Assembly (NCBI GenBank): GCA_030625965.1
Contig: DAOUPV010000020.1
Coordinates: 1 to 32,061 of the forward strand
Length of the DNA stretch: 32,061 bases
Direction: 5' to 3'
Origin: Clostridia bacterium
Lineage (GTDB): Bacteria > Bacillota > TC1 > UBA5767
The notes beneath the pieces are model-generated. The model ran no database searches. It was not told the DNA's origin and saw nothing but the letters and a program-made list of their open reading frames with translations. Position numbers and translations under genes: made by a program. Positions 4,081 to 31,578 of the stretch are shown here, one piece after another; the first letter of the stretch is position 1, and every line of letters begins with the position of its first letter.

Positions 4081-4851
4081 TCATCGTGCTTCATTTAAAT
4101 GTTGCATCAGTTGCTGGTAATCCTCCTGATAACCGAAAAGTTCGATATCCTTGCGAAATCTCTTATACACCAGATGGGCTGTTTCATGAGTATAGTAATC
4201 CATCCAGCTATAGTCTTTGCTCTTGTTATAGTGCGGCAGATTGCCCAGGTTATAGCACACCTGGAGGGCCGAAAATTCCTCTCCGATGTTTTCCAAATGA
4301 CCAATCTCTTTAACAAGCTTCCGATTTCTGAAATCATGCGTCAAACGGTATTGTGAACGAAAATGCTTGTTTGACAAGCAATCAGGTATACGAGCCACAT
4401 TTTTGACAAACTGCTCGAAACCCTTATCTTTTCTCATAACTCCCAATAGGTAGTAATCGAACGTCAGTTGCTCCCAATCCTTATCCAAATCACCTTGGTA
4501 TTTGTCAATATAGCAAGATACCAGTCTCTTAAAAGGATTCCTGACAAAAGTGAATGAATGGAAATCCTTTATATTTTCCGGCACTTTATGAACTTCATCG
4601 AAAGAGTACTTATGGATACTAGAGCCGTCTCCCTGAATATCCTGCGTCAATGTCTGCTTAATGGAAGAACAGCCTACCTTGGGATTAGATAGATAAATCA
4701 GCTTCTTGTCCCTCAGGACAACAAAGATTCTATTCTGCACCATACCGTATCGGCATAGTCTCAAAAATTCCTTTATGGTGTATTTGATCTGGAACCCAAT
4801 GTTGATTCTCCTTGACTGCCCGGTTGATCTCATATTTCCATTAATCTTCAT
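4081..4851 (-). CDS. Carbohydrate sulfotransferase, Sulfotransfer_2-like
   Basis: It probably transfers sulfate from PAPS to a sugar hydroxyl. The 256-residue protein has the 5'-phosphosulfate loop LIYLSNPKVGCSSIKQTL (about 51-68) and the 3'-phosphate motif SFTFVRNPFKRLVSCYIDKY (99-118), then HFRSQYRL. The NPKVGCSSIK...FVRNPxxRLVSxY pattern is that of the family including chondroitin 4-O- and heparan 2-O-sulfotransferases. No signal peptide is seen, so it acts in the cytoplasm, where PAPS is. The start is uncertain: the ATG at 4851 has AGGGAGG at 8 bases, but an ATG at 4914 (or TTG at 4917) adds about 21 residues with a weaker site. The gene is clearly AT-rich: three sampled 60-base lines are 33-38% GC, against 60% in a sampled cysNC line. 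This suggests separate acquisition. Acceptor unknown. Confidence 0.85.
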   Translation of the reverse strand: MKINGNMRSTGQSRRINIGFQIKYTIKEFLRLCRYGMVQNRIFVVLRDKKLIYLSNPKVGCSSIKQTLTQDIQGDGSSIHKYSFDEVHKVPENIKDFHSFTFVRNPFKRLVSCYIDKYQGDLDKDWEQLTFDYYLLGVMRKDKGFEQFVKNVARIPDCLSNKHFRSQYRLTHDFRNRKLVKEIGHLENIGEEFSALQVCYNLGNLPHYNKSKDYSWMDYYTHETAHLVYKRFRKDIELFGYQEDYQQLMQHLNEAR

Positions 4852-4937
4852 ACAACCACCCTCCCTGACGGTCAATAACCTCAACTCAAGTATATCCTCA
4901 TAGAAATGTTCCATCAACCAAACCCCTGCACTCGCCC

Positions 4938-6773
4938 TTATTGCCTGCTGGTCTCAGATAAATCCGACAATGTCACTTCGATTTGGCTGATAGCTTCGGA
5001 TAATTCGATTTGGCTGGTATCCACACGCAAATCAGGATTCACTGGTTCTTCATAGGGGCTGGAAATACCAGTGAAGTTGGGTATCTCGCCATTTCTGGCC
5101 TTTTGGTACAAACCCTTTGTATCCCTGCCCTCGCATACCTCAAGCGGTGTGCTGACATGGACCTCCATGAACCCCTGTCCGATGATAGATCTGGCCTGTT
5201 CCCTGTCCTCCTCGTAAGGTGATATGAGAGCCACGATAACGATGAGTCCCGCATCATTCATCAGCTTGGCCACTTCAGCCACACGTCTTATGTTCTCAAT
5301 GCGATCGACCTCAGTGAATCCCAAATTGCGGTTCAGTCCGTGTCGCACATTGTCCCCATCCAGAATCATGGTGTGTCTTCCAGCTTGAAGCAACTTGCCT
5401 TCCAGCGCATTGGCAATGGTGGACTTGCCCGAACCGGACAGTCCAGTCAGCCAGACGGTTCCTGGTTGTTGGGCCTTCTGTTTGGCCCTGACCTGACGGG
5501 TGACTGCGGTCTGCTCCCAAAAGACATTGGTAGAGCGTCTCATGGAGTGACTAATGGTGCCGCAGGCCGAGGTCATGTTGCTTACCCGATCCATCAATAT
5601 GAACGAGCCCAGGGTCCGGCTATTCTCAAATTTCTCAAAGACCATGTTTTCAGATAATGCGATGGTGCAGACCCCGATTTCGTTTTTCATCAGGCGATCC
5701 ACGCTCAACTGTTTGCCCGAATGCACATCGATTCTGTGTTTGATCTCAAATATGGTGGCAGGAAGGACCTTAGTACCGCACTTGATTAGATAACTCCTTC
5801 CTTCGACCAATTCATGATCGTCCATCCAGAGCAGCTTTGCCTCGAAGAGGTCCGCCAATTGCACTCCCTCATCGCTAGAAAGCACACAACCACGGGAAAC
5901 ATCGACCTCCCGATCCAGTTGTACGGTCACAGGTTGTCCGTTGGCAGCGTCCTCCACTTCCCAGTTGCCCACATACAGACTCTTGACCTTGGCTCTCTCC
6001 CGGCTGGGTAGACTCACCAATTCATCACCTACCCGAACGGCTCCTGACTCTATTTGGCCCTGGAAACCCCGGAACTGGTGATTCGGTCTGGACACCCGCT
6101 GCACCGGCATGATGAAGCGACTGTTTTGCTCTTCTCTAGATACGTCAATGGATTCCAGTAATGGCAGCAGCGGTAGTCCCTCATACCATCTGGTGTTCTC
6201 TGACAGACTGGTCACATTGTCTCCCTCTGTAGCAGATACGGGTATCACCTGTAAGCTGTCCAGTTCAAAGATTGCTGCAAAGGATAGAAACTCGTTCTTG
6301 ATATCTTCAAATCGGTTCTTGTCAAAGTGGATCAAATCCATCTTATTAACAGCCAGCAGCATATGCTTGATGCCCATCAGGGCGCAAATCCTGGCATGGC
6401 GTTTGGTCTGCGACAGAATGCCTTGAGTGGCATCCACCAGGATGACTGCCAAATCAGCGAAAGAAGCTCCGACCGCCATGTTCCGTGTGTACTGTTCGTG
6501 CCCCGGACAGTCCGCTACGATGAAGGATCTCTTGTCAGTGGAAAAGAATCGGTAGGCCACATCTATGGTGATACCCTGCTCCCGCTCGGCCATCAGGCCG
6601 TCGAGCAACAATGAGTAGTCAATGGCGCCTTCCCTGCTACCCACCTTGCTCTCCAGTTCCAACGCCTTTTCCTGGTCGGTGAAGATCAGCTTGGCATCAA
6701 AGAGCATATGCCCGATCAACGTGGATTTACCGTCATCCACGCTGCCGCAGGTTATGAATTTCAACAATTCCAT
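4938..6773 (-). CDS. cysNC: Bifunctional sulfate adenylyltransferase subunit 1 / APS kinase (CysN-CysC fusion)
   Basis: A 611-residue fusion like NodQ. The first part is the GTPase subunit of ATP sulfurylase: GSVDDGKST (10-18), the switch region [16 protein letters not shown] (62-77), DCPGH (88-92), NKMD (143-146) and two EF-Tu-like beta domains to about 420. The second part is APS kinase: GLSGSGKST (444-452), [10 protein letters not shown] (472-481), ALISPY and [11 protein letters not shown]. With CysD it makes APS, then phosphorylates it to PAPS, the sulfate donor for the sulfotransferases. I chose the ATG at 6773: it starts one base after the cysD stop and gives the canonical MELLKF start. 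The earlier in-frame start at 6830 lies inside cysD. There is no CysH nearby, so the product is probably reserved for sulfation. Confidence 0.95.
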
Positions 6774-6774
6774 C

Positions 6775-7665
6775 CTAGAAGTACCCCTCTCTCTTGCGTC
6801 TTTCCATGCTGGCTGCGGCTTCCTGGTCAATGACCCGGCTAGTCCGCTCCGAGGTGAGGGCCATCAGCGTCTCTTCGATGATGCCATCCAATGTATCCGC
6901 ATCGGATTCATAGCCTCCGGTAAGGGGATAACACCCCAAGGTACGGAAGCGTACATTCCTCCTGACAACCTCTTCCCCAGGCAGAATCCGCATACGTTCG
7001 TCATCCACCATGATGATGTTGCCGTCCCGGTAGATCACCGGCCTCTCCTTGGCAAAGTACAAGGGTACGATATCGATCTGTTCCCGGCGGATGTATTGCC
7101 AGATATCCTTTTCTGTCCAATTGGATACGGGGAAGACACGCATGGATTCCCCTTTGTTGATTCTAGTATTGTAGAGCTTCCACATCTCGGGTCGTTGATT
7201 CTTGGGATCCCAAGCATGGCTGGCATTGCGGAAGGAAAAGATACGCTCCTTTGCCCGGGACTTTTCCTCGTCCCGGCGTCCACCGCCAAATGCCGCTGTG
7301 AAGCCGTACTTATCCAATGCTGCTTTAAGAGCTTCCGTCTTCATGATATCCGTATAGGCCGATCCATGGTCGAAGGGATTGATGTTCTTGGCCACCCCGT
7401 CCTGGTTGGTATAAACCAGCATCTCGATGTCCAGTTCTTCAGCCTTGCGATCCCGGAAATCAATCATCTCTTTAAACTTCCAGGTCGTATCGATATGCAT
7501 GAAGGGAAAAGGCGGCTTTTCCGGATAGAAGGCCTTTAAAGCCAGGTGCAGCATCACCGAGCTGTCCTTGCCGACAGAATAGAGCATGACCGGCTTTTCG
7601 CATTCTGCAGCCACTTCCCTCATGATATATATAGCTTCCGCTTCCAATTGGTCTAAATGTGTCAT
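6775..7665 (-). CDS. cysD: Sulfate adenylyltransferase subunit 2
   Basis: The catalytic subunit of GTP-driven ATP sulfurylase, forming APS from sulfate and ATP together with the CysN half of the neighbouring fusion. The 296-residue protein has the PP-loop [11 protein letters not shown] (29-39), [11 protein letters not shown] (58-68), the conserved [15 protein letters not shown] (127-141), [12 protein letters not shown] (178-189) and the C-terminal [10 protein letters not shown]. All key motifs are intact and the length is normal. The ATG at 7665 sits 4-5 bases after a perfect AGGAGG. The upstream in-frame ATG at 7683 would place the start inside cysQ and has no such site. Its stop is one base from the cysNC start, so the two subunits are probably translationally coupled. 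Confidence 0.96.
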
Positions 7666-7673
7666 TTTTCCTC

Positions 7674-8462
7674 CTACACCCATATGTTTTCCTTTCGATT
7701 GACGATATAAAAGCCCTTGCGGTTTAAATTGTCTTCCCTGTTATATCTCATGATGCTTCCATCCATCTGTCTGAAGATACCGCCGGCTTCCTCCACGATG
7801 CACTGCATGGCCGCCGTGTCCCACTCCGAAGTGAGTCCAAAGCGGTAATATACATCTGCCAAACCTCTGGCCACCATACAGCCCTTGAGCGAGCTACCCA
7901 TGGAGGTGATTTCTTCGATATCCTTTTCATGCTCCGAATAGAGCTTCTTTTCCTCTTCGCTGGTATGAGACCTGCTGCCTACGACTACCAGTCCTGTCTT
8001 CTTCTCACTGACCTGTAGCTTTTCTTTTGCACCAGTCTCCATGTTCTCATAGAAGGCGCCGTCGCATTCACTGGCGCTATACAGTTCCTTGGTTACAGGC
8101 ACGTAGATGACCCCGGCTACTGGACAACCTCTGCGACACAATGCGATGTTCACCGTGAACTGACCGTTCCTCTTTACGAACTCCTTGGTGCCGTCCAACG
8201 GGTCCACTACAAAGCAATAGTCATTCTCCATCCTAGAGAAGTCTTCCTTACCTTCCTCCGAGAGCATGGCATAGTCAGGATAGGCTTCCTGCAGATCTGC
8301 AACTATGATATCGTTGGCTCTTTGGTCCGCCAACGTAAGCGGTGACTGGTCCTCTTTCAAATTATAATCGAAGTCCGTCTCGTATACTTCCAGTATGGCT
8401 TTCGATGCACGAAGTGAAGTCTGGGTCAACGTCTTGATGATGTCTTTATAGTAGCGGTTCAT
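7674..8462 (-). CDS. cysQ: 3'(2'),5'-bisphosphate nucleotidase (CysQ)
   Basis: It hydrolyses PAP, the by-product of every sulfotransferase reaction, to AMP, relieving product inhibition and recycling the nucleotide. The 262-residue inositol-monophosphatase-fold protein shows the metal-binding motifs LSEEG (67-71), [10 protein letters not shown] (86-95) and SEWDTAAMQ (212-220). TLADQRAND near residue 43 is also typical of CysQ. The ATG at 8462 follows AGGAG, with a 3-base gap after the upstream sulfotransferase stop. It lies between the sulfotransferase pair and cysD. That is good context for PAP rather than inositol phosphate as substrate. Confidence 0.93.
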
Positions 8463-8465
8463 AGT

Positions 8466-9470
8466 CTAACTCCTGTCTAGTATATGCTTCAGATACAATC
8501 TGTATTCTTTGAATAATGCATGATAGAATGACTGCGGGATTTTCACAGACAACTGTTTCTCTATATCTCCGACCTTTTCCTGAACCGTTTCCATTTGACC
8601 TCCATGAGGCAAATAACGATTGATTTCGGCCACACAATTATTGATTTTCTCCGCTTGATCCTTACTATACTCAATATCCAGACGGAATGGAACATCCTCA
8701 ACATTCGAAAACACATTAATCGGTATCCGTTTATGGCATAACCCTCTCTCCTGATTCAAATTGCCATTCCGCAATAGCGGATATTCCTTGTTGTATCTTT
8801 CCAACAGCAACACCGAGTACAAGCCGATCGACTGGTTGACTCTTGGTGCTGGTGCCAACTTCAGGTCGGAGTCATCGATTTCAGCTGCATGGAAAAAGTC
8901 CGAGATAAGATCCCCCTTGTGAAAGGCTTCTTTTCGAAACGGTCTCAGACGAAACTCATACTCCGGACAAGCCTCAATCCATGTCAGCAATCTCTGATAG
9001 CCGCACTGATCTAGCAGCGTTTTTAATTCTGTTCTGATACTCGGTCTGCCATTTTTCATTCGCTGCTGTATTGAGCTGGAAATATATGAATCATAATCTC
9101 GAATATAGGCGATAACAACGATCTTGTCAAAATACTGACTTAAGACCTGTTTCAGCCTGAAAATATCCTCTCGAGGGAAAAACATCAACTGTTCTGCTGA
9201 TATGATGGTCGTGTTCATATCGGACTTGATTTCCTCTAACCACAATTCATGCCAGGATGACGTCATTTCCCCATAGTTTATAATTTTCTTCTGTATGGCT
9301 TTCCCGGTTTTAGTATTAATCAGGGAAAAAATGGTCTTGTTATGCGGATGTACACTCATCGGGTAGTTTATGCCATATTTTACCAATGTATCCGCATTAT
9401 CCCTTAAGAATCCCTGAATGGAAGAGGAGCCAGCTTTGTTCATTCCAATATGTAAAATCAATCGTTTCAT
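8466..9470 (-). CDS. Sulfotransferase-like protein (KAGSSSIQ loop type)
   Basis: A 334-residue protein starting MKRLILHIGMNKAGSSSIQ, a phosphosulfate-binding loop at residues 7-19. A likely 3'-phosphate motif follows: VIAYIRDYDSYISSSIQQRM (119-138). Near the middle it has GLYSVLLLERYNKEYPLLRN and then NLNQERGL, segments shared with the N-terminal half of the next gene upstream. The two are thus tandem paralogues. The ATG at 9470 follows AAAGGGA; the ORF extends 11 residues further up but that part overlaps the neighbour. Two sampled 60-base lines (9121, 9301) are 38% GC, lower than the sampled cys and rml genes. The acceptor is unknown. The sulfotransferase call rests on the loop and on location directly before cysQ. 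Confidence 0.75.
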   Translation of the reverse strand: MKRLILHIGMNKAGSSSIQGFLRDNADTLVKYGINYPMSVHPHNKTIFSLINTKTGKAIQKKIINYGEMTSSWHELWLEEIKSDMNTTIISAEQLMFFPREDIFRLKQVLSQYFDKIVVIAYIRDYDSYISSSIQQRMKNGRPSIRTELKTLLDQCGYQRLLTWIEACPEYEFRLRPFRKEAFHKGDLISDFFHAAEIDDSDLKLAPAPRVNQSIGLYSVLLLERYNKEYPLLRNGNLNQERGLCHKRIPINVFSNVEDVPFRLDIEYSKDQAEKINNCVAEINRYLPHGGQMETVQEKVGDIEKQLSVKIPQSFYHALFKEYRLYLKHILDRS

Positions 9471-9471
9471 A

Positions 9472-11478
9472 TCAGTTCCCTTTATTCTGCTCTGCCATTT
9501 CAATGGCTTTGTGATAGCAATTCATCCATTCAACAAATAGCGATTCATCAAGAATCTGCTTTGATTCACCCACACCATCATCCAATTCCTGTAGTTCATC
9601 CGGGGACAGCAACGCCTCAAGGTGGATGTGTTCCATCAATCTGTCCGGATACAGCACTCCATGCAAGTCACTTGGTACGCTGTCATCATATTTCAGACTT
9701 TCTGCCGGGTTCTCATCCCAGCAGGATAGGCAGTAATGCAGGATGCTGGATATTCGAATCGGATAGTTAGGTCCTTTTTCCGTATCCGGCACACTTATGT
9801 TTCGTTCAACTGCTATCCTGGTATCAGGAAATTCGCAGCTTAACGTTTTCACTCTGCGGAGCATCTGGAGATACTCTTGTTTTTTTGACATCGCACTATC
9901 TTGATCCAGCCCTTTGCCATCCTGATGCCAGAATACGTATGTAGTGAAATCCGGCAGAATGATTTTGACTCGATTCCGTCCACCTTGACAAGCATTCTGG
10001 ATCATTTCCATGGCCACTGCGTCATCATCCAGTTTGAAATCTCCTAGTCGATGATCAGTCCATTGAAGCCGTAGATTCGTGGTATCCTTGGCCGCATGGA
10101 TGCTCAGCCCTCTCTTCAGGTACTCCCGAACTAGGGGGTTGATGAATGTTGACTTGCCGATCCCTCCCCCTGCCCTCGGCAGTCTCTTCTCATAGGCTCC
10201 ATACAAGAAGTAATGTTTCAAAGCTGATATGTTGGTGTAATCGACATCATCATACATGGCTTGATAGTAGTCTTGATTGAAGATTACCCGGTCTTTGAAT
10301 AGTGCAAATTGGATTAAGCGAAATAGCATTCTGGGAGACTTGCTAATCTTCTCCTGAGATAGGTTCACTTTTAAGCGTCTTACACTCTTCCGGCCACTTC
10401 CTGAATTGTCTACACGATTCTGCAACGCATGTATTCGCTGATTCTTTCTTTCAACCAGCTGATTATAAGCGTTAATCACTTCCACAAAATAATCAATACT
10501 TGGATCTTCCTCTAGTGATTCCGAACAGGCCCCGGTAGCTGAGGTCTTCTGCTCAGGAATCGTACAACTGATCCAATCCTGCTCCGGCAGAAATCGATTT
10601 ACATATTCTACCTGCTCAGCGATAGCCTTGCGCCGTTCCGAATCATAGTACAAAGGGATGCTGATTCGAGTCCCTTCGTAATGCTGGAACACACCGAAGG
10701 GCAACGGTCGATTGCCCATCCCCCGTTCTTCGTTCAACTTCCCATTCTTGATGGTCGGGTACTTCTTGTTCAGTTCATAAAGAAAGATGGCCGATTCAAG
10801 ACTCAAGGATTCATTCCGTCTACTGACTGTCAAGGTCTCCGGTCTGATGTCCACGCCGCAACCGTGGTAGAAGAAATCCATTTCCAATGATCCATTGCGA
10901 AATGACTTAGGTTGAAATGGCCGGACCACGACATTTTCCTGGCCAAAAATCTTAATCCAACGGGATAATTGTTCCTTATACTTTATTTCTATTTCCCGTC
11001 CCTGATAGTATTCCAAAAATGATTTATCGCTGGGAGTATACCCGTTCTTAATATCCTGCTGCAGCATACTGGGAATGTATCTACCTGGATCACGAAAATA
11101 GATAATAATTCTAATTTCATCAAACAGCGGCGAAACAAACGTATGCAGCCTCTTGATATCCGGCAAACCGTAAAAGGACATTGTTTCGCTGGATACAACA
11201 GCTGTTCCCTCTTCTATCTCCTCCCAGAGATCAGTCCAATGCCTTTTCAGTTGCTGAACTTTGGATTTTACATCAGTAGTACCATAATTCTTCTTCCAGT
11301 CATATGAGGCTTCCGGTCTGGACTTGAACAGCGGTGAAAAGCTATGATTGTTATGATGCATTTCGGCGAAATAAAATATGTTTTGTTCTTTAAACGCAGG
11401 TATGGACGAGATCAGACATTCCTGAATCGAACTGGTACCCGTCTTCATGGTCCCGATGTGTATTAACAGTCTTTTCAT
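9472..11478 (-). CDS. Sulfotransferase-like fusion protein with uncharacterised C-terminal half
   Basis: A 668-residue protein in at least three parts. Residues 1-300 are a sulfotransferase-like domain paralogous to the downstream gene, with LIHIGTMKTGTSSIQE (5-20), IIYFRDPGRYIPSMLQQ (125-141) and KNGKLNEERGM (244-254). Residues 335-360 form a polar, possibly coiled linker. Residues 398-434 hold FNQDYYQAMYDDVDY...ALKHYFLYGAYEKRLP. This resembles the short DYY..YPDV..HYL.YG..EGR module that accompanies many polysaccharide glycosyltransferases. AGGGIGKS follows (436-443) and formally fits the Walker A pattern. About 220 further residues match nothing I recognise. The ATG at 11478 has GAGGA at a fair distance. 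It probably sulfates the growing polymer; the C-terminal function is unknown. Confidence 0.72.
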   Translation of the reverse strand: MKRLLIHIGTMKTGTSSIQECLISSIPAFKEQNIFYFAEMHHNNHSFSPLFKSRPEASYDWKKNYGTTDVKSKVQQLKRHWTDLWEEIEEGTAVVSSETMSFYGLPDIKRLHTFVSPLFDEIRIIIYFRDPGRYIPSMLQQDIKNGYTPSDKSFLEYYQGREIEIKYKEQLSRWIKIFGQENVVVRPFQPKSFRNGSLEMDFFYHGCGVDIRPETLTVSRRNESLSLESAIFLYELNKKYPTIKNGKLNEERGMGNRPLPFGVFQHYEGTRISIPLYYDSERRKAIAEQVEYVNRFLPEQDWISCTIPEQKTSATGACSESLEEDPSIDYFVEVINAYNQLVERKNQRIHALQNRVDNSGSGRKSVRRLKVNLSQEKISKSPRMLFRLIQFALFKDRVIFNQDYYQAMYDDVDYTNISALKHYFLYGAYEKRLPRAGGGIGKSTFINPLVREYLKRGLSIHAAKDTTNLRLQWTDHRLGDFKLDDDAVAMEMIQNACQGGRNRVKIILPDFTTYVFWHQDGKGLDQDSAMSKKQEYLQMLRRVKTLSCEFPDTRIAVERNISVPDTEKGPNYPIRISSILHYCLSCWDENPAESLKYDDSVPSDLHGVLYPDRLMEHIHLEALLSPDELQELDDGVGESKQILDESLFVEWMNCYHKAIEMAEQNKGN

Positions 11479-11488
11479 CTTTTTTCCT

Positions 11489-14464
11489 CTAAACCAAATG
11501 CCTGATACGTCTCAATAAGCTATACGTATTCTTAGCAAACTGCAAAAATCTTGGATGTGCCGCAAACTTGGTCTTAAAGCGTTGCTTGAATTCCACACGA
11601 TTATAGAGCAAGTAGAACAATGCTTTTTGGTGTGAGCTCCGGCCATAGAGAAACGTCGGTTCTTCGCCTAGCTCCAGAGACGGATTAAGCTCTTTCATAG
11701 CAATCTCATCCATCTGCTTTCTTTCAGCAAGTTCTCTCTTCCATAAATAGAAAATGGAAATACTCTTTCCCGCGTCCATGTACTCTGCGTATTTAAACAA
11801 GCGCTTATCCACTTCCAAATCGGAAAACAACAACCTTTGCAGCGCACGGTCCAATCCGTATGTCTTATCCCCAAGATACTCTGCATACTTGGAATACGTT
11901 GCTTTGAAATCAGATGCCAACAACATTATGCCTCTACTCATCTCATGAAGCAGATACTGATTTATTGTATGTCGGTTCACATCAGCAGCACCCAAGGATT
12001 TTTGATAGTCCAAAACGACAGTTCTACCCAGAGGATTTAGAAAGTACATTTCGATACGGGCGGACCACACGACATCCCTGTTCTCATAGTATGTCATGCC
12101 GTCTCTTTCTTCGCTGTCGGCATGGAGGTACAACCGACCTGTCTCAGGGCGGAATCTCTGGAAAAAGGACTCCGTCAATCGGCAGTATCCATAACTCAAA
12201 TAGGCCGTGGTAGCCCCATCAAAATCAAGGGCTATCTGTTCCGCTTTTCCTCTGACCAGATTCAGCTTATGGCTTTCCAGAGTCAGCAGCAGATCATAAA
12301 ATTCAGTCTCACCCCGGAATTCCTCTTCAGTAACCGGTACTACTTGTTGGATTTGGGTTCTAGTTTCGCTTGGAACATCCAAGATATCATACAGTTCAGC
12401 AGATGAAAATTCCTTGATGTCATAATAGTGAGGAATGCGAAACAGATCCTCCGCAGACGTGCAAAGAGCTTTTAACATATCCCTTTTAGAAAATTCTGCG
12501 CATACCAGACTGCACTCTTCTTCAGCACCAAATAACTCTTCATACAACACGCTCAGAGTGTCATATATGTCGCTATCAACTATTAGCTGTTTGATACCTG
12601 ACCGAACGATGTGGTTATGCAGCCACAAACAGGCCCCCAACAGATAGAATCCGACAGGTAAGTATCCGTACAAGTTCGGTTTCCCCAAGAAATCGGAGTC
12701 CAAGCAGTTTTCGTTCTGCAATGTACCATAATAACGTTTCTGGACCAGGCCTACCAAGAGTCTCACTAACAGCTCATCATTCTTGGATTTCCCCGCAACC
12801 TGCCATTTCTTATTCTTCTGTCGAACGAATCCCAGATAATCCATGGCAGTCTGCATGTGCTTATGTATGCCAGGATAGTATATGCGTCCTTTTTCAGAGT
12901 CAGCCACTTCCGGATCCAGTGTGATTTCCAGAATCGTTTCCTGGTCAAGGGCGGCAAATTCCTCCAGGTCACACACGCTGATGCTTCGGGTAGCAATCTC
13001 TTCATCCTCCACCATCCTGACCAGTGCATGGTTTAGCGTTTCCTTATTGTGCACCGTGTCATTGATAACCGCAATTGTCTTGCCTGCGGATGCGGCCACA
13101 TGCATGAACTCCAGCAGCTCACCATGAAGGTACCGTATCTCTCCATATGCTGTAACTTCCCTGCGCTTCATATCGGTCAGGCTGTCTTCGGGGTATAGAC
13201 CGGTTTCCCGGAGTAATGCATATACTTTGTCCAGCCTGCCAATGTTTGTGTGCGGTTTCATCGCCTTCGCCACTGTCTCTGCCCACATTCTCATCATGGG
13301 AAAATCTGTAGTCTCAAGATCTGTTCCCAGGCAGAGGAGATGATATTCATCTTCTCTCTTACAAACGGGACTCACCAGACATTGGGATGCCATAAGAGCT
13401 AACCGAGTCCTCTCAGAGTTGTAGATATGCTGTAGCGTTTCCTCCAGCCAGGCAGATGCCGGGCGCTCATAGGAATAGAAGTAATTATCAGTATTTTCTG
13501 CCGCTGGAATCTTATTCACGGAGAATGTTTTCTTCAGATAATTGATGAGTTCCAGCTTAGCATGCGGCGCAAGCAGCGTACCCTTGATTTTCAGGGAGTA
13601 GCTGAAGACTTCCCTCTCCATCCATAAGGCCAGGTCATGTCTATGTTGTTCAAGAACCTGCTTTTTCTCGAGGAATGTCTCCATCAGGCCAAAGGAGAAA
13701 CGAAGGTCACCAATCAGTTTGATGAATTTCTTCTTATTACCTGAAATGCTTGTTGTTGAGTTGATATTGCGGATGTAGAAATAACCCTCATATTCTACGC
13801 TGGTATAGCGATTGGCATAAAAATGCAAAAGCATAGTTTGGTAGACATCTTCGTAATTGAGAAAATGACGCACGATTTCCAGATCCTCTTGCGCCTTCTC
13901 CCACACGCTCCGGTGGTATAGCTTATTCCATAAAACCACCCAATGGAAAGCATTCCTGGCATGCCTCATATATGCTTTGAAAACATCCTTCCCCTCCAGG
14001 ATCTCTCCCGTTGGCCTGTTAAGAATGTTTACGGATTTCCTATCATTGATTTCATCTACCACCACCATATTACCGCAGACCATATCCGCGCCAGTCTGAA
14101 GCGCAGTTCGCATCAGTCGTCGGTAGAAGTCCACTCCGAGATAATCATCGCTATCCACACAGGCGATATACTCTCCGCTTGCATGCCGGAATGCGGTCAT
14201 CCTGGTCGCGAACACGCCCTGGTTCTTCTCATGTTCGATGAAATTCACCCTTCGATCCGCCTCCAGATATGGTTGGATGAGTTCCCTTATGTTACCTGGC
14301 GAACAATCACTGACCACAATGATCTCCAGATTGGCATAGGTCTGGTTGAGTATGCTCTTTAGACAGCGTTCGAAGAGATCCTCCGTGTTATGTACAGGTA
14401 CCAACACTGATATTTTCGGTTGATTCTCAACCATTCTTTCTTCTGGTGACAAATCTCTTATCAT
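11489..14464 (-). CDS. Large GT2 glycosyltransferase with C-terminal HAD-like region
   Basis: A 991-residue cytoplasmic protein. Residues 17-240 are a GT-A fold family 2 glycosyltransferase: KISVLVPVHNTEDLFERCL, then IVVSDCSPGN and the metal-binding VDSDDY (103-108). From about residue 375 the protein resembles the HAD-like domains found in surface-polysaccharide loci. It has TDLETT (381-386) in the place of motif I, GKTIAVINDT (461-470) near motif II, and YGYLPVGFYLLGACLWLHNH (599-618). Several catalytic positions look altered, so this part may be inactive. The start is uncertain. The ATG at 14464 has AGAGGAAG and overlaps the ATPase gene by 38 bases. An ATG at 14434 overlaps by 8 but has a weaker site. 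It lies between the ABC exporter and the sulfation module. Confidence 0.75.
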   Translation of the reverse strand: MIRDLSPEERMVENQPKISVLVPVHNTEDLFERCLKSILNQTYANLEIIVVSDCSPGNIRELIQPYLEADRRVNFIEHEKNQGVFATRMTAFRHASGEYIACVDSDDYLGVDFYRRLMRTALQTGADMVCGNMVVVDEINDRKSVNILNRPTGEILEGKDVFKAYMRHARNAFHWVVLWNKLYHRSVWEKAQEDLEIVRHFLNYEDVYQTMLLHFYANRYTSVEYEGYFYIRNINSTTSISGNKKKFIKLIGDLRFSFGLMETFLEKKQVLEQHRHDLALWMEREVFSYSLKIKGTLLAPHAKLELINYLKKTFSVNKIPAAENTDNYFYSYERPASAWLEETLQHIYNSERTRLALMASQCLVSPVCKREDEYHLLCLGTDLETTDFPMMRMWAETVAKAMKPHTNIGRLDKVYALLRETGLYPEDSLTDMKRREVTAYGEIRYLHGELLEFMHVAASAGKTIAVINDTVHNKETLNHALVRMVEDEEIATRSISVCDLEEFAALDQETILEITLDPEVADSEKGRIYYPGIHKHMQTAMDYLGFVRQKNKKWQVAGKSKNDELLVRLLVGLVQKRYYGTLQNENCLDSDFLGKPNLYGYLPVGFYLLGACLWLHNHIVRSGIKQLIVDSDIYDTLSVLYEELFGAEEECSLVCAEFSKRDMLKALCTSAEDLFRIPHYYDIKEFSSAELYDILDVPSETRTQIQQVVPVTEEEFRGETEFYDLLLTLESHKLNLVRGKAEQIALDFDGATTAYLSYGYCRLTESFFQRFRPETGRLYLHADSEERDGMTYYENRDVVWSARIEMYFLNPLGRTVVLDYQKSLGAADVNRHTINQYLLHEMSRGIMLLASDFKATYSKYAEYLGDKTYGLDRALQRLLFSDLEVDKRLFKYAEYMDAGKSISIFYLWKRELAERKQMDEIAMKELNPSLELGEEPTFLYGRSSHQKALFYLLYNRVEFKQRFKTKFAAHPRFLQFAKNTYSLLRRIRHLV

Positions 14465-15230
14465 GCTTTCTTCCTCTTCTTTTTCCCTGCATGGCAGCTT
14501 CATAAGCTTCAGCAATCTCCGTAGAAGGCCCCTCTCGTACGATTCTGCCTTCCTCCATCCAGATTGCCCTCGTTGTAAGCTCACGTATGCTTTCCAGGCT
14601 ATGGGTACAAAGAATCACCGTCTTCTTGTCAGCAATCATTCCCTTCATAGTATCGTAGCTCTTCTTTCTGAAACGCAGATCGCCCACACCCAATACTTCG
14701 TCAAGGACCAGGATCTCAGGGTCTATCTTGCTGGCAATGGCGAATCCCAGTTTGGCCCTCATCCCGGATGAATAGTTTTTCACCGGGATATTGATGAAAT
14801 CCTCCAATTCCGAATAGGCTACAATCTCATCAAAAATCTGATCAATAAATTCTTTCTTTTTGCCAAGAATGGCAGCATTGAGGTAGATGTTCTCAGCTCC
14901 GGTGAATTCTGTTTCGAACCCTGCGCCCAGCTCCAGCAGAGGAGCAATCTTACCCTTGACCTCTACCGTTCCCCTTGTGGGTTTCATCACCCCGGAAATC
15001 ACTTTAAGAAGCGTGCTCTTTCCAGCACCGTTGGGTCCGATAATACCGAACTTATCACCTCTATTAATGCACAGGTCAATACCATCCAAGGCCAAGAACC
15101 GTTGCTTATCGATTCCTCCGTGCATACGGCGTATGAAATATTCCTTCAGGCTGTCAATCTTCTCATTAGGAACTATGAACTCCATCCCCACATTGTTCAG
15201 CGTGACTACGACCTTATTATTGCACTGCAT
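14427..15230 (-). CDS. Polysaccharide ABC exporter ATPase (Wzt/TagH type)
   Basis: The nucleotide-binding subunit of a polysaccharide exporter, energising transfer of lipid-linked polymer across the cytoplasmic membrane. In 267 residues it has Walker A GPNGAGKST (65-73), a Q-loop region LLELGAGFETEFTGAENIY (98-116), the signature YSSGM (153-157), Walker B LVLDEVLGVGD (174-184) and the H-loop CTHSLE. GAGFxxEFTGxENIY is a hallmark of the polysaccharide/teichoic-acid exporter family. It lacks the extra C-terminal carbohydrate-binding domain found in some Wzt proteins; only a short basic tail follows. The ATG at 15230 has AGGAGG at ideal spacing, preferred over the longer in-frame start at 15263. 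It pairs with the permease gene immediately upstream. Confidence 0.94.
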   Translation of the reverse strand: MQCNNKVVVTLNNVGMEFIVPNEKIDSLKEYFIRRMHGGIDKQRFLALDGIDLCINRGDKFGIIGPNGAGKSTLLKVISGVMKPTRGTVEVKGKIAPLLELGAGFETEFTGAENIYLNAAILGKKKEFIDQIFDEIVAYSELEDFINIPVKNYSSGMRAKLGFAIASKIDPEILVLDEVLGVGDLRFRKKSYDTMKGMIADKKTVILCTHSLESIRELTTRAIWMEEGRIVREGPSTEIAEAYEAAMQGKRRGRKHDKRFVTRRKNG

Positions 15231-15240
15231 GATAACCTCC

Positions 15241-16026
15241 TTAGAGATACAAAATAAAACCATCTTGCTTCTTTTTGAAATAAGTTACACCCAGTATCAA
15301 GCTGACCAGGGATATAGCCAGGCATAAAAGCAGGTTCGTCGTATCTGGCGCCAATCCATAATAGGTCACCCGGCGAAAGCCTTGCAGAAAATGAAAGACC
15401 GGATTGAATTGCAGCATGAACTGATACTTCTGCGGTACGATTTCCGGCGGATAGATAATGGCACTGGCGAAATAGAGTGCATTGGTAAACACCTTGTATA
15501 TATGTTCCGTGTCCCGGAAATATACAGCAAATGCAGACAAGGCCATCCCTATCCCGACTGTAAATATGAAAATCAGAATCATATAGGGAATCCCCCACAG
15601 GATATTCCAGGTTATATTGTGCCCGGTCACCAACATAATCAGCCCCAAGTCAATCAGTGATATCAAGAAAAAGATATAGTTGGAGCAAAGCTTGGACAAT
15701 ACTAAAATATACTTTGGAATGTAGATTTTCCTGATTAATGGCGCAGCTGCCACGATGGATTGCATGGCAATCGTAGAACCAGAAGTGTAGAACTGAAATA
15801 GCAACCGTCCGGTGAGTAGATAGACCGGATAATTGTCCACGTTTCTGCTGAGTAGCGAAGAAAACACAATGGACAAGATAATCATGTCTAGCAGGGGGCT
15901 CAAAAGACTCCAGAGAATCCCCAGGTAGGAATTCTTGTATTTCTTCTTCACATCCCGCATGGTCAGCAGGTAAAACAGATACTTATGATCCATAAATACT
16001 TCAACTTGTCTCTTAATCGCATTCAT
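15241..16026 (-). CDS. Polysaccharide ABC exporter permease (Wzm/TagG type)
   Basis: The membrane subunit of the exporter, 261 residues, with an N-terminal amphipathic segment and about six membrane helices. The sequence RDVKKKYKNSYLGILWSLLSP (24-44) is the family entry motif. Later segments IGMALSAFAVYFRDTEH and FASAIIYPPEIVPQKY are typical of ABC-2 polysaccharide exporters. The start follows CAGGAG with 8-base spacing. The ATPase gene begins 10 bases after its stop. A sampled line (15661) is only 28% GC, low even allowing for membrane-protein codons. It sits right after two rhamnosyltransferase-like genes and the rml genes, as in streptococcal rhamnan (Rgp) loci, so the exported backbone may be rhamnose-rich. 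Confidence 0.93.
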   Translation of the reverse strand: MNAIKRQVEVFMDHKYLFYLLTMRDVKKKYKNSYLGILWSLLSPLLDMIILSIVFSSLLSRNVDNYPVYLLTGRLLFQFYTSGSTIAMQSIVAAAPLIRKIYIPKYILVLSKLCSNYIFFLISLIDLGLIMLVTGHNITWNILWGIPYMILIFIFTVGIGMALSAFAVYFRDTEHIYKVFTNALYFASAIIYPPEIVPQKYQFMLQFNPVFHFLQGFRRVTYYGLAPDTTNLLLCLAISLVSLILGVTYFKKKQDGFILYL

Positions 16027-27616: not shown

Positions 27617-28531
27617 TTACAGCGGGTAACCCCATGTTTCAAGACTGTATTTCGGTCCCAGCAATTCAGCCAGCTTGCGGTTGTCGTTTCTGTACTCTTC
27701 CTCAATTTCCTGCTTCAGCCCAAGGCCCAGTTCCCCGGACCCTCTTTTGCCCGCTTTCCAGCGGACCAGCAGTTTTCTTGTCACCTTGCCCAAAGCAGGC
27801 AGGTTGATCAGGTTTTCGCTGTTCAGGTCGCTGACCACAGAGATATGGTTGACTAAACGCTGCAGGTTGGCAGCACTGCTACTAATTGATGCGTTGATGC
27901 GCCTGTCGGTATCTGCCTGAACCTTCAGGCCTTCCAATCCGTTCTCACGCAGGAACCGCTTCAAAAAGTCTTCTGAATCATCGGCAAACCTCTCATAGAG
28001 AAAGACATGCAATGCTTCGCCGAACACACTGCGGCAGTAAGAGACCATGGGGCTGTACCGAAAATAGCGGTAACTGAAATAATCCCTTCGATCGCCCGCC
28101 GGCGGATGCAGATATCTCTTAAGATTCAATCTGCCACCCATCTTGACATACTGCCTGTAGGTCGAGTGAATCATGTCTGGTTGGTTGCGCAACACAAGAT
28201 TAACATGTAGCTCATCATCTGCAAAGGTCCTCTGCAACCGTTCAGCGAGTTCTTTCTCCGCGTACCCGCCTTTTCCCCCGTTATGCGGATTGCCGCTCAG
28301 TTCTTCCTCGGCCAAGACCACGATCTGGTCTTCTCCGGCTTTTTGGAACTCCCTCTCAAAGGTTTCCCGGGCGTGAGAAGGATTGAATTCCAATGAACCG
28401 GGTGCGACCAATGTGTCCCGAACCAGCTTACGGTTCAACATATGGAAGCAAGCGTTCCTACTGAACAACTCATATTGGAACCAACTTGTCCCAGTCTTAT
28501 GATATCCAATCAAACAGATGATTTTTCGCAA
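27617..28531 (-). CDS. Sulfotransferase-like protein (YHKTGTSW loop type)
   Basis: A 304-residue protein with IICLIGYHKTGTSWFQ at the start, a clear 5'-phosphosulfate loop, and VNLVLRNQPDMIHSTYRQY (about 110-128), the 3'-phosphate motif. VFLYERF follows. It probably sulfates a sugar using PAPS. Start choice: a TTG at 28531 has GGAGG exactly 5 bases upstream and gives MRKIICLIGYHKTGTS. An in-frame ATG at 28543 adds four residues but lacks a ribosome site. It is distinct in sequence from the other five sulfotransferases. Acceptor unknown. Confidence 0.82.
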   Translation of the reverse strand: MRKIICLIGYHKTGTSWFQYELFSRNACFHMLNRKLVRDTLVAPGSLEFNPSHARETFEREFQKAGEDQIVVLAEEELSGNPHNGGKGGYAEKELAERLQRTFADDELHVNLVLRNQPDMIHSTYRQYVKMGGRLNLKRYLHPPAGDRRDYFSYRYFRYSPMVSYCRSVFGEALHVFLYERFADDSEDFLKRFLRENGLEGLKVQADTDRRINASISSSAANLQRLVNHISVVSDLNSENLINLPALGKVTRKLLVRWKAGKRGSGELGLGLKQEIEEEYRNDNRKLAELLGPKYSLETWGYPL

Positions 28532-28552
28532 AGTTACCTCCATTGGCCATCG

Positions 28553-29506
28553 CTATGAGCGTTTGAACCGTCTACACCACCGGCGTTTCAACTTTCGACC
28601 GCGCTTTTCCACCTTGCGAACAGCCTCTCGCAAACCCGATACGACTTTATCCCCAACACTGAATTCCTGTAGGCTCGGGCTGAACAAGAGATCATAACCC
28701 AGACAAGGAAGAAAGTCCTTTGTAATCGATTCGAAAATGCGTATATCCCGTTCAGAGAGTCCCTCTCGCCATCGGCCCCGATTCTCTTTTTTCAGTCCCT
28801 TGCCCACCAAGGCATGCTGTTTTTGGGAATGGTCAGGTACACTGAACCGTTCCTGACCGGCAGCCAATTCATTGTAGTCCAGTCCCAGAAACGCGCAAAT
28901 CCGGGATATTTCCGTCCGGGGATCCTCCAGAATATCCTCATACCGGGTCAGCAGCAGCTTGTCCGACCCCAGATGATGTTCCAGCGCAAGCCCGTGCCCC
29001 ACCTTGGAAACCCAGTCCTTAGCGGAGAAGTAAGTCTCATATGGTCCCCAGGTCACCTGGCGGTAGGAATAGGCCACCCCTCTGCCATCCCGCACGATAT
29101 GGATGAACTTGGCATCTGGGAACAGACGGTTCAGCCTAAGTCCGTGGCGCATGTTGTTGGGCGTATGGTCCACCCAGTATCGGGTTTCACCCGGTTGATA
29201 CTTGTCCTGATATTGATCCAGGATGAGCTCGATCAAATCCTGGTAACTTATCCTGGGCTTTCCGGCCAGTTGCGTGGCCAGTTCATCCAGGGAGATCTTC
29301 CAAGATGCAAAGCGATACTCGCTCCTTAGATATGCCATGGCCTGCTCCAGGTCTATCGCTCCATCCTCAGCAGTGTATCGCATCAGCCCTAGCTTGAATT
29401 GTGACTCTGGTGTCACCAACAGGTCCGGATGCTTGCCCAGATAGGAACCCAGCATGGTTGTTCCGCTGCGTTCACATCCCCCAATGAATATGGCTTGTCG
29501 TTTCAT
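28553..29506 (-). CDS. Sulfotransferase, Sulfotransfer_3-like
   Basis: A 317-residue protein with IFIGGCERSGTTMLGSYL (6-23) as the PAPS loop, PESQFKLGL, VDHTPNN (112-118) and FIHIVRDGRGVAYSYRQ (134-150) as the 3'-phosphate site. LLTRYEDILEDP follows. The G-x-x-RSGTTxL and IVRDGRxVAxSY motifs are typical of the Sulfotransfer_3 family, the commonest bacterial type. The tail from about residue 290 is very basic (KRGRKLKRRWCRRFKR), perhaps binding membrane or polyanion. The ATG overlaps the GT4 stop as ATGA with a weak ribosome site, so translation may be coupled. Confidence 0.88.
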   Translation of the reverse strand: MKRQAIFIGGCERSGTTMLGSYLGKHPDLLVTPESQFKLGLMRYTAEDGAIDLEQAMAYLRSEYRFASWKISLDELATQLAGKPRISYQDLIELILDQYQDKYQPGETRYWVDHTPNNMRHGLRLNRLFPDAKFIHIVRDGRGVAYSYRQVTWGPYETYFSAKDWVSKVGHGLALEHHLGSDKLLLTRYEDILEDPRTEISRICAFLGLDYNELAAGQERFSVPDHSQKQHALVGKGLKKENRGRWREGLSERDIRIFESITKDFLPCLGYDLLFSPSLQEFSVGDKVVSGLREAVRKVEKRGRKLKRRWCRRFKRS

Positions 29507-30612
29507 CTGCTATCAGTGTCCTTCCGTATACTCAGTAGTTTTTCATACTGTTCCAAAGTCTTCTCTGCAATCTTCTCCCAAGTATATTGCTCCTCAATCA
29601 GTTTTCTGGCCATATCGCCCCTTCGGGCCAATTCCTCTTTGTCCTCAAAAGCTTTGAGGATGGCCTCCCCGACATCTCTGAAATCCAAATCCACTGCCCA
29701 TCCGGTTCCCGTCTCTTCGATCTCCTCAGCCATGTTTGTCCCAGGCGTGGCCAAGACAGCCATTCCCTGGCTCATGGCCTCCAGTACGGCCATTGGATGT
29801 CCTTCGAAACGCGAAGTAGCAATGAAGAGATCCGAACGCAATAGCGCCTCTTCCTTCATCTTGCCGTAAACCGGTCCGTGTACCGTAAGTACCTCGTCCA
29901 GTCCGTTGACCTCGGCCTGCTGCTGCAACAGCTGACGCTCTTTGTTCCTGGAACCATACAGATCGATGGTCAGTCCCTTCTTTTGCATCGCATCCTTGAT
30001 GTGGCCGATGGCCAGCATCAGGACATCCAGCCCCTTGTGGCGGATATCGTAGCGGCCGATAAAAATCATATTGCTACCGTTTCTCCCGCCCCGCTCAGAT
30101 GATTCGGAAAGCTCTATACCGTTTCCCACTACGAAGCAGTTGCCTCCGAATTGGACTGATTCGTCCATTTCCCGCTTGGTTAGATAGTGGATAGCAGCCG
30201 CACGTCGGATGAAGCTGTTAACGAACAGGGCATTGGCCAGCCGTTTCTTCCAACTGCTCTGGCCCTGGGCCTCTCGGGTCAGGCTGACCCGGGGCGTCAC
30301 CACATATGGAATTCCTCGCATCCTTACCTCCCACCAAAGGGGTAGGTAGCGCTGCTTGTAGATTCCGTGAAAAATCACCAGATCCGGCCGGTTGAACGGT
30401 TCCGGCAGATTGGCAATCCTCCCGTATCGGGGAAAGAAAGGGAAATCGTAGGCTTCCGCCTCGGCTGCCTCCAGCTTCTCCTCCGGTGCTGTATTGAGTA
30501 TGGCCGCTCGAACGCCCTCGATCCGGTTCAGACCGCTGGTCAGTCCGGGTACGGAAAATCTCGGTCCGTTGGCTACCTTCATGAGTATTGGTGACACATG
30601 CAAAATTATCAT
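29503..30612 (-). CDS. GT4 glycosyltransferase
   Basis: A 369-residue retaining GT-B enzyme. It starts MIILHVSPILMKVANGPRFS, with VIFHGIYKQRYLPLWW and RGIPYVVTPRVSL in the N-terminal half. FIGRYDIRHKGLDVLMLA and the donor-binding ATSRFEGHPMAVLEAMSQG form the C-terminal half (the E-x7-E motif). This is the ordinary GT4 layout of polysaccharide loci. GGAGG precedes the ATG at good distance. It lies between two sulfotransferase genes, suggesting they act on the same unit. Donor unknown. Confidence 0.9.
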   Translation of the reverse strand: MIILHVSPILMKVANGPRFSVPGLTSGLNRIEGVRAAILNTAPEEKLEAAEAEAYDFPFFPRYGRIANLPEPFNRPDLVIFHGIYKQRYLPLWWEVRMRGIPYVVTPRVSLTREAQGQSSWKKRLANALFVNSFIRRAAAIHYLTKREMDESVQFGGNCFVVGNGIELSESSERGGRNGSNMIFIGRYDIRHKGLDVLMLAIGHIKDAMQKKGLTIDLYGSRNKERQLLQQQAEVNGLDEVLTVHGPVYGKMKEEALLRSDLFIATSRFEGHPMAVLEAMSQGMAVLATPGTNMAEEIEETGTGWAVDLDFRDVGEAILKAFEDKEELARRGDMARKLIEEQYTWEKIAEKTLEQYEKLLSIRKDTDSR

Positions 30613-30628
30613 CTATATCCTCCAAGCA

Positions 30629-31510
30629 TTATCTGTATCTGTTCTCTTTCTCTTTCCAGTGTGATAAATCCTTCCCGATCAGCAGTTCCAATCGCTCAAT
30701 ATCCTCTCGGTAATACCGCTGAAGTGTCTGGTAGAACTCATCGCTCAACTGCACCTTGAGTCTCTTGTCGCTCCGGTTGTATCGCCGGATGGCGTTACTC
30801 AGTCTGTAGCGTGCAGAATCAAGCAGACGCGGTCCCGATTCCCCCTTAGGCTGGATGTAACGTTTAACGAAGCGGTTCAACACCAACGAACGGGGTGACA
30901 CACCTTTGTTGCTGCTAGCCAGAGGAATCTGCCTGAATTCGATGTCCAGGAAATCGTAGAGTTCTCCCATGCTCTCATCCGTCTCATTCAGCAGGTCCTC
31001 GAACAGCATGATCTTGACCGATGAGAATCTCTCCTGAAATCGCTCCACCTGGTCAGAATAGATCCCACGGCTAAAATAGCTTTGACGGTATCTCGAGCGG
31101 CCTGATGCCGCCAAGCGTTCCGGCTCACACGCAAAGGCCTGTTCCAAATCGAGTATCTCCCATCCCCTTCCGTAGGTCATGCGGTAGTGGGAGACCGCCC
31201 GATCGATAGGATTCCGAAGCAGGATCAGGATCTTGGTCTCGTCGCCCAAAGACTCATGGATACGCTCCGCCACCTGGGGCATAAAGAGATATGCCGGTGT
31301 GATATCCACCCGTACTGGATAATCCTCGGCTCCCCTAAAATGTTTTCGGTAGGAATCTAGATCCTGTCGGTAATCGGGCGCATCGAAGAAATGTAGTTCC
31401 TTACGTTCCGGTACATACACCTGTGGATGTTGCCGCAGCATTTGGTACAAGCTGGAGGTCGCTGCTTTCTGGGCGCCGACACACAACAGGTTTGGTAGAT
31501 TAGAGTTCAT
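30629..31510 (-). CDS. Sulfotransferase, Sulfotransfer_1-like (heparan-type)
   Basis: A 293-residue protein with LLCVGAQKAATSSLYQML (8-25), PERKELHFFD, VDITPAYLFMP (68-78), ILILLRNPIDRAVSHYRM (94-111) and SRGIYSDQVERFQERF. This is the layout of the family with heparan N-deacetylase/N-sulfotransferase and 3-O-sulfotransferase, also common in bacteria. All PAPS-contact motifs are intact. No signal peptide. I chose the ATG at 31510 (AAAGGA, 8 bases); a GTG at 31540 and an ATG at 31528 are alternatives. It is the first gene of the second operon. Acceptor unknown. Confidence 0.9.
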   Translation of the reverse strand: MNSNLPNLLCVGAQKAATSSLYQMLRQHPQVYVPERKELHFFDAPDYRQDLDSYRKHFRGAEDYPVRVDITPAYLFMPQVAERIHESLGDETKILILLRNPIDRAVSHYRMTYGRGWEILDLEQAFACEPERLAASGRSRYRQSYFSRGIYSDQVERFQERFSSVKIMLFEDLLNETDESMGELYDFLDIEFRQIPLASSNKGVSPRSLVLNRFVKRYIQPKGESGPRLLDSARYRLSNAIRRYNRSDKRLKVQLSDEFYQTLQRYYREDIERLELLIGKDLSHWKEKENRYR

Positions 31511-31578
31511 CTTTCCGTTCCTTTCCATCCTGTTATTCACGTCTGTCCTTTACGATCCGCCCTAGAAGAGCGATTCTG

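Follow-up and report, generated by a model that had tools for sequence, protein, structure and literature searches.

The window, a 32,061-nucleotide stretch of a Clostridia bacterium contig, contains an open reading frame for a predicted sulfotransferase that continues well beyond its first domain. The original prediction had placed in the frame a sulfotransferase domain, an FNQDYYQAMYDDVDY...HYFLYG module (the DYY module), the string AGGGIGKST, and a tail of about 220 residues; the sulfotransferase signatures, the module, the string, and a tail of about 224 residues were all found, as were the limits of the frame itself (Table 1). The frame is real, and a second species of the genus conserves both its sequence and its gene order. 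A search of ten genomes of the same class yielded one ortholog there (L002:169-2148, 659 residues, 50% identity), and the order of the surrounding genes is the same. Identity to this ortholog differs strongly from one segment of the protein to the next.

Table 1. Features of the sulfotransferase fusion protein and of its gene neighborhood (window coordinates; percentages are identities to the ortholog unless stated otherwise)
Feature	Coordinates	Strand	Remarks
Whole open reading frame, 668 residues	9472..11478	(-)	ATG start; order sulfotransferase, coil, DYY module, C-terminal domain
Predicted sulfotransferase domain, residues 1-303	10570..11478	(-)	65%
Putative 5'-PSB (PAPS 5'-phosphosulfate) loop HIGTMKTGTSSIQ, residues 7-19	11422..11460	(-)	HxGxxKTGxSSIQ type
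Putative 3'-PB signature YFRDPGRYIPSMLQQDIKNG, residues 127-146	11041..11100	(-)	RxPxxxxxSxxxxxxxxG type
Linker, long predicted helix or coil, residues 304-396	10291..10569	(-)	41%
DYY/HY module, single copy, residues 397-435	10174..10290	(-)	49%
AGGGIGKS, Walker-A-like, residues 436-443	10150..10173	(-)	not conserved; 10% over the ten residues around it
C-terminal domain without family match, residues 445-668	9475..10146	(-)	35%, in one ortholog
Second, stand-alone sulfotransferase, same family	8466..9503	(-)	35% identity to residues 1-301 of the fusion protein; ortholog in same order
Inositol monophosphatase family, CysQ-like (putative PAP phosphatase)	7674..8462	(-)	Pfam PF00459, E=3.8e-56
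CysD-like ATP sulfurylase small subunit	6775..7683	(-)	Pfam PF01507, E=4e-56; called CysD because it precedes CysNC
CysNC, fusion of ATP sulfurylase GTPase and APS kinase (PAPS synthesis)	4938..6830	(-)	Pfam GTP_EFTU and APS_kinase, E=2.6e-68
Sulfotransferase (Sulfotransfer_2)	4081..4917	(-)	
Large GT2 glycosyltransferase, 1031 residues, directly upstream	11489..14584	(-)	ortholog L025:636-3647, 54%
ABC exporter	14427..16026	(-)	ATPase 14427-15263, ABC-2 permease 15241-16026
Sulfotransferase, GT4 glycosyltransferase, sulfotransferase	28553..31540	(-)	28553-29506, 29503-30612, 30629-31540

Residues 1–303 are predicted, from motifs and neighborhood, to form a PAPS-dependent sulfotransferase. The putative 5'-PSB loop follows the pattern H-I-G-x-x-K-T-G-x-S-S-I-Q, which is also seen in a 16-member set of sulfotransferases, and H7, G9, K12, S17, I18, and Q19 are invariant among seven aligned sequences. 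The 3'-PB signature reads Y-x-R-D-P...S-M-x-Q-Q...G, with Y127, R129, S137, and G146 likewise invariant in an alignment of seven. Both signatures are kept in relatives from the genus and in plasmid relatives from Cereibacter and Rhodobacter, and they are present in a wider set of alphaproteobacterial and cyanobacterial relatives that includes Leisingera, Acuticoccus, Paracoccus, and Gloeothece. In Pfam, no sulfotransferase model scores above the cut-off for the whole protein, nor does any model for this domain on its own (Sulfotransfer_1 reaches E=0.007 and 16.2 bits against a cut-off of 22). The curated cut-off was not used to define membership, because sister members of the family also fall short of it; with no Pfam call above it, the assignment is based on the motifs and on relatives that are mostly annotated as hypothetical.

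The neighborhood is that of a polysaccharide pathway, most likely the synthesis of a sulfated capsule or O-polysaccharide. Along with the CysQ-like, CysD-like, and CysNC genes, the ABC-2 exporter, and the glycosyltransferases, the same strand carries a UDP-sugar dehydrogenase, epimerases, the genes for dTDP-rhamnose, and an initiating sugar transferase; three further sulfotransferases on it belong to the Pfam families Sulfotransfer_1, _2, and _3. The second species has a syntenic block, at 49–91% identity. The 32-kb cluster holds five sulfotransferases of at least three families (4081-4917, 8466-11478, 28553-29506, and 30629-31540, the second interval spanning two of them), a number and variety that suggest a polymer sulfated at several positions. 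The stand-alone enzyme next to the fusion gene probably starts at the ATG of MKRLILHIG, at about position 9470. Two other products of the cluster deserve mention. Most of the large GT2 glycosyltransferase beyond its GT2 domain is without a Pfam match, and by eye parts of that region resemble a degenerate HAD-type region. A 308-residue frame at 27617-28543 has no Pfam match at E<0.001, and its ortholog was not seen in the syntenic G009 block.

A useful point of reference is the very similar cluster of Vibrio sp. KMM 8419, whose sulfated capsule is chemically proven and whose gene set is reported to include second copies of cysC, cysN, and cysD, sulfotransferases, UDP-glucose and dTDP-rhamnose genes, and an ABC transporter (PMC11641403). 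The protein described here resembles the sulfotransferases of such clusters in its 5'-PSB and 3'-PB signatures and in having cysD, cysN/C, rml, and ABC-export genes nearby. It differs from them in its fusion to the DYY module and a 224-residue tail, and in a divergence great enough for the Pfam Sulfotransfer models to miss it. Alphaproteobacterial plasmids (Cereibacter, Rhodobacter, Acuticoccus) encode stand-alone members of the same family, 25–30% identical over some 230–370 residues and labeled "hypothetical protein." Unlike the fusion protein, none of the seven that were tested carries a DYY module, and the tail has no match among the plasmid records. A gene for a DYY-bearing glycosyltransferase adjoins a sulfotransferase of this family in Acuticoccus sp. 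I52.16.1.

A different arrangement of the same parts occurs in a third species of the genus, G008, where a protein of 1075 residues (L026:2206-5433) combines a sulfotransferase of this family with a pair of DYY modules and with a GT2 domain, again in a cluster with sulfation, rhamnose, and ABC-transport genes. Where the window protein has its tail, this fusion has about 340 residues without a Pfam match, followed by the GT2 domain. Close by (L026:643-2196) lies a protein of 517 residues in which both halves look, by eye, like sulfotransferases, with GMHRSGTS and GVQKAGTS loops.

The DYY module follows a linker in which the low-confidence full-length AlphaFold model places a helix at residues 326–358. 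On sequence grounds, the module is not a chance pattern. Residues 397–435 fit the consensus F[DN]xxxY...D[VIL]...H[FY]xxxG..EGR, and the Y, D, H, G, E, and R positions are common to all four copies in the genus. A model built solely from the modules of other proteins finds the ortholog's copy with an i-E of 1.3e-6, whereas the window's own copy scores weakly (0.36). Neither Pfam nor NCBIfam has a model for the module. A hit to Pfam dCache_1_like over the module (E 0.013, below the cut-off) was set aside as chance; the other relatives scanned lack it at E<0.05.

The original prediction ties the module mainly to glycosyltransferases, which do carry it, but this view is too narrow. Among plasmid proteins, the module occurs in those annotated as glycosyltransferase, GH99-like, rhamnan synthesis F, GT61, and DUF616, and also in SAM-dependent and FkbM methyltransferases and in RTX-type calcium-binding proteins. 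In another genome of the phylum (G248), some eight tandem copies stand behind an Amidase_3 domain, and a similar array stands behind a Glucosaminidase domain, so that cell-wall hydrolases are among the hosts as well; these tandem proteins are encoded at L048:175-2664 and L049:832-2664. Since a glycan substrate is the common thread of these hosts, we infer a role in binding or positioning glycans, and glycan binding is the likely function. To our knowledge, glycan binding has not been reported for any DYY module; the module itself may be a widespread repeat for glycan binding that has yet to be named.

The original statement that the C-terminal stretch could not be assigned has held up, and the confident match to a known domain that would have refuted it did not appear. 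Pfam, NCBIfam, PHROGs, and PDB sequences were searched with the single sequence and with a two-sequence profile and yielded nothing, and when the tail model was compared by Foldseek with structures from PDB and from viruses, no hit fell below E=0.001. Scans of 399 genomes from the phylum and 391 from a different class, and of plasmids and phages, turned up no relative besides the same-genus ortholog; neither did GTDB contigs or IMG/VR, which were searched with short exact patterns that distant relatives would escape. These collections may leave out near neighbors. Comparisons by hhalign with the neighboring 1031-residue glycosyltransferase and with the G008 fusion were not significant. Two matches within the phylum at E=0.002–0.005 proved to be TrpF proteins that share "GFVFW" by chance.

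We take the tail as a real, maintained, fast-evolving, genus-restricted α/β domain. It is regarded as real because it is open and in frame and keeps 74 residues identical to the ortholog, including NPLVRE, WTD, LPxFxTYVFW, YCLSxW, and FVEWMNC. The proposal of a novel type of domain, catalytic or polymer-binding, stays a conjecture. A fast-diverging stretch that is restricted to the genus and found in two species fits an accessory role better. With two sequences to go by, it would most likely be an accessory, non-catalytic domain, although some catalytic activity is conceivable.

It is conceivable that the tail is instead a decaying remnant without function. It is the least conserved domain of the protein, and the two species show 11-residue length differences. 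Nevertheless, frame and overall length are maintained together with the 74 identical positions, and this reading is unlikely.

For the tail's fold, an AlphaFold model based on the two sequences (pLDDT 49, pTM 0.48) gives the order strand-helix-strand-helix-helix-strand, then helices, in agreement with the separate full-length run, a single-sequence model that is itself of too low confidence for use (pLDDT 36). The predicted elements suggest a Rossmann-like core, and several identities can be considered for it. One is a second, degenerate sulfotransferase domain that has lost its P-loop. Inspection by eye suggests a strand-helix order like that of a sulfotransferase core around VKIILPDFTTYVFW...YLQMLRRVKTL...RIAVERN, and weak viral sulfotransferase structures are among the Foldseek matches. 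Against a 16-member sulfotransferase profile, however, hhalign gave a score of 16.0, within the range of shuffled sequences (median 13.8, top 22.8), over an alignment of just six residues; this identity failed the profile test and is quite improbable.

A second candidate is remote homology to the cyclodipeptide synthases or to the class I aminoacyl-tRNA synthetases (HUP fold); such a tail might decorate the polysaccharide in an aminoacyl-tRNA-dependent manner. The best Foldseek matches in PDB, obtained with the pLDDT 49 model, are cyclodipeptide synthases (2x9q, E=0.03, TM 0.27), followed among the sub-significant matches by 3oqv, 9gun, 4q24, and 6ez3, with the synthetases TyrRS and TrpRS close behind. 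The predicted order of elements is compatible with the cyclodipeptide synthase family (PF16715), and by eye a 44-residue stretch beginning VKIILPD looks like it. Profile similarity, however, was not significant. Against a 15-member profile, hhalign scored 14.8, no better than shuffles can reach (median 13.6, top 22.1), hmmsearch gives 0.1 bits, the tail lacks the GxSP-type motif of these enzymes, and a YH pair, which lies within a predicted helix, is HN in the ortholog. A PF16715 scan of the genome returned zero matches, as did the controls. With no structural match below E=0.001 and a TM of only about 0.27, a relationship of this kind is very unlikely.

A broader form of the same idea, in which the tail is a new lineage-restricted Rossmann/HUP catalytic domain, possibly related to these two families, that adds a second, non-sulfate modification, has an equally slim chance of being right. 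If it were true, the protein would be a bifunctional capsule-decorating enzyme, with both catalytic domains acting on the same polysaccharide.

The reading that survives least well gives the tail a catalytic role of its own, with AGGGIGKST as its P-loop (e.g., as a kinase or NTPase whose substrate is the polymer), and is exceedingly improbable. The string, residues 436–444, does fit [AG]x4GK[ST], a pattern that occurs once in the protein and that 2.6% of its shuffles also contain, but the ortholog has KSMKQKEG at this site (one of ten aligned positions identical), no P-loop family model matches, and the low-confidence full-length model shows coil there, without the preceding strand and following helix that a P-loop would have. 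A P-loop NTPase was rejected because the ortholog lacks the string. The Walker-A-like loop of the original prediction is therefore present as letters but finds no support as a functional element, and it is probably a chance match within a variable linker.

With these alternatives weighed, the protein is best explained, with good probability, as a cytoplasmic PAPS-dependent polysaccharide sulfotransferase that carries a glycan-associated module, an accessory tail, and a chance Walker string. From family identity and neighborhood, CysD and CysNC would make PAPS, and CysQ would clear PAP. The predicted sulfate transfer by residues 1–303 would modify a sugar in a surface polysaccharide that contains rhamnose and uronate, and it would take place in the cytoplasm, before export. 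The DYY module, as its company suggests, probably helps to hold or find the glycan acceptor, and the tail may possibly contribute to acceptor choice or to contacts with the neighboring glycosyltransferases.

Few bacterial sulfated-polysaccharide clusters have been characterized, and we know of none from this lineage. The protein adds a multi-domain polysaccharide sulfotransferase to the sulfated surface-glycan clusters. For its tail, the evidence favors a lineage-specific accessory domain over a surprise. The DYY module reaches further: widespread, associated with glycans, and modeled by neither Pfam nor NCBIfam, it is common to sulfotransferases, glycosyltransferases, and cell-wall hydrolases.
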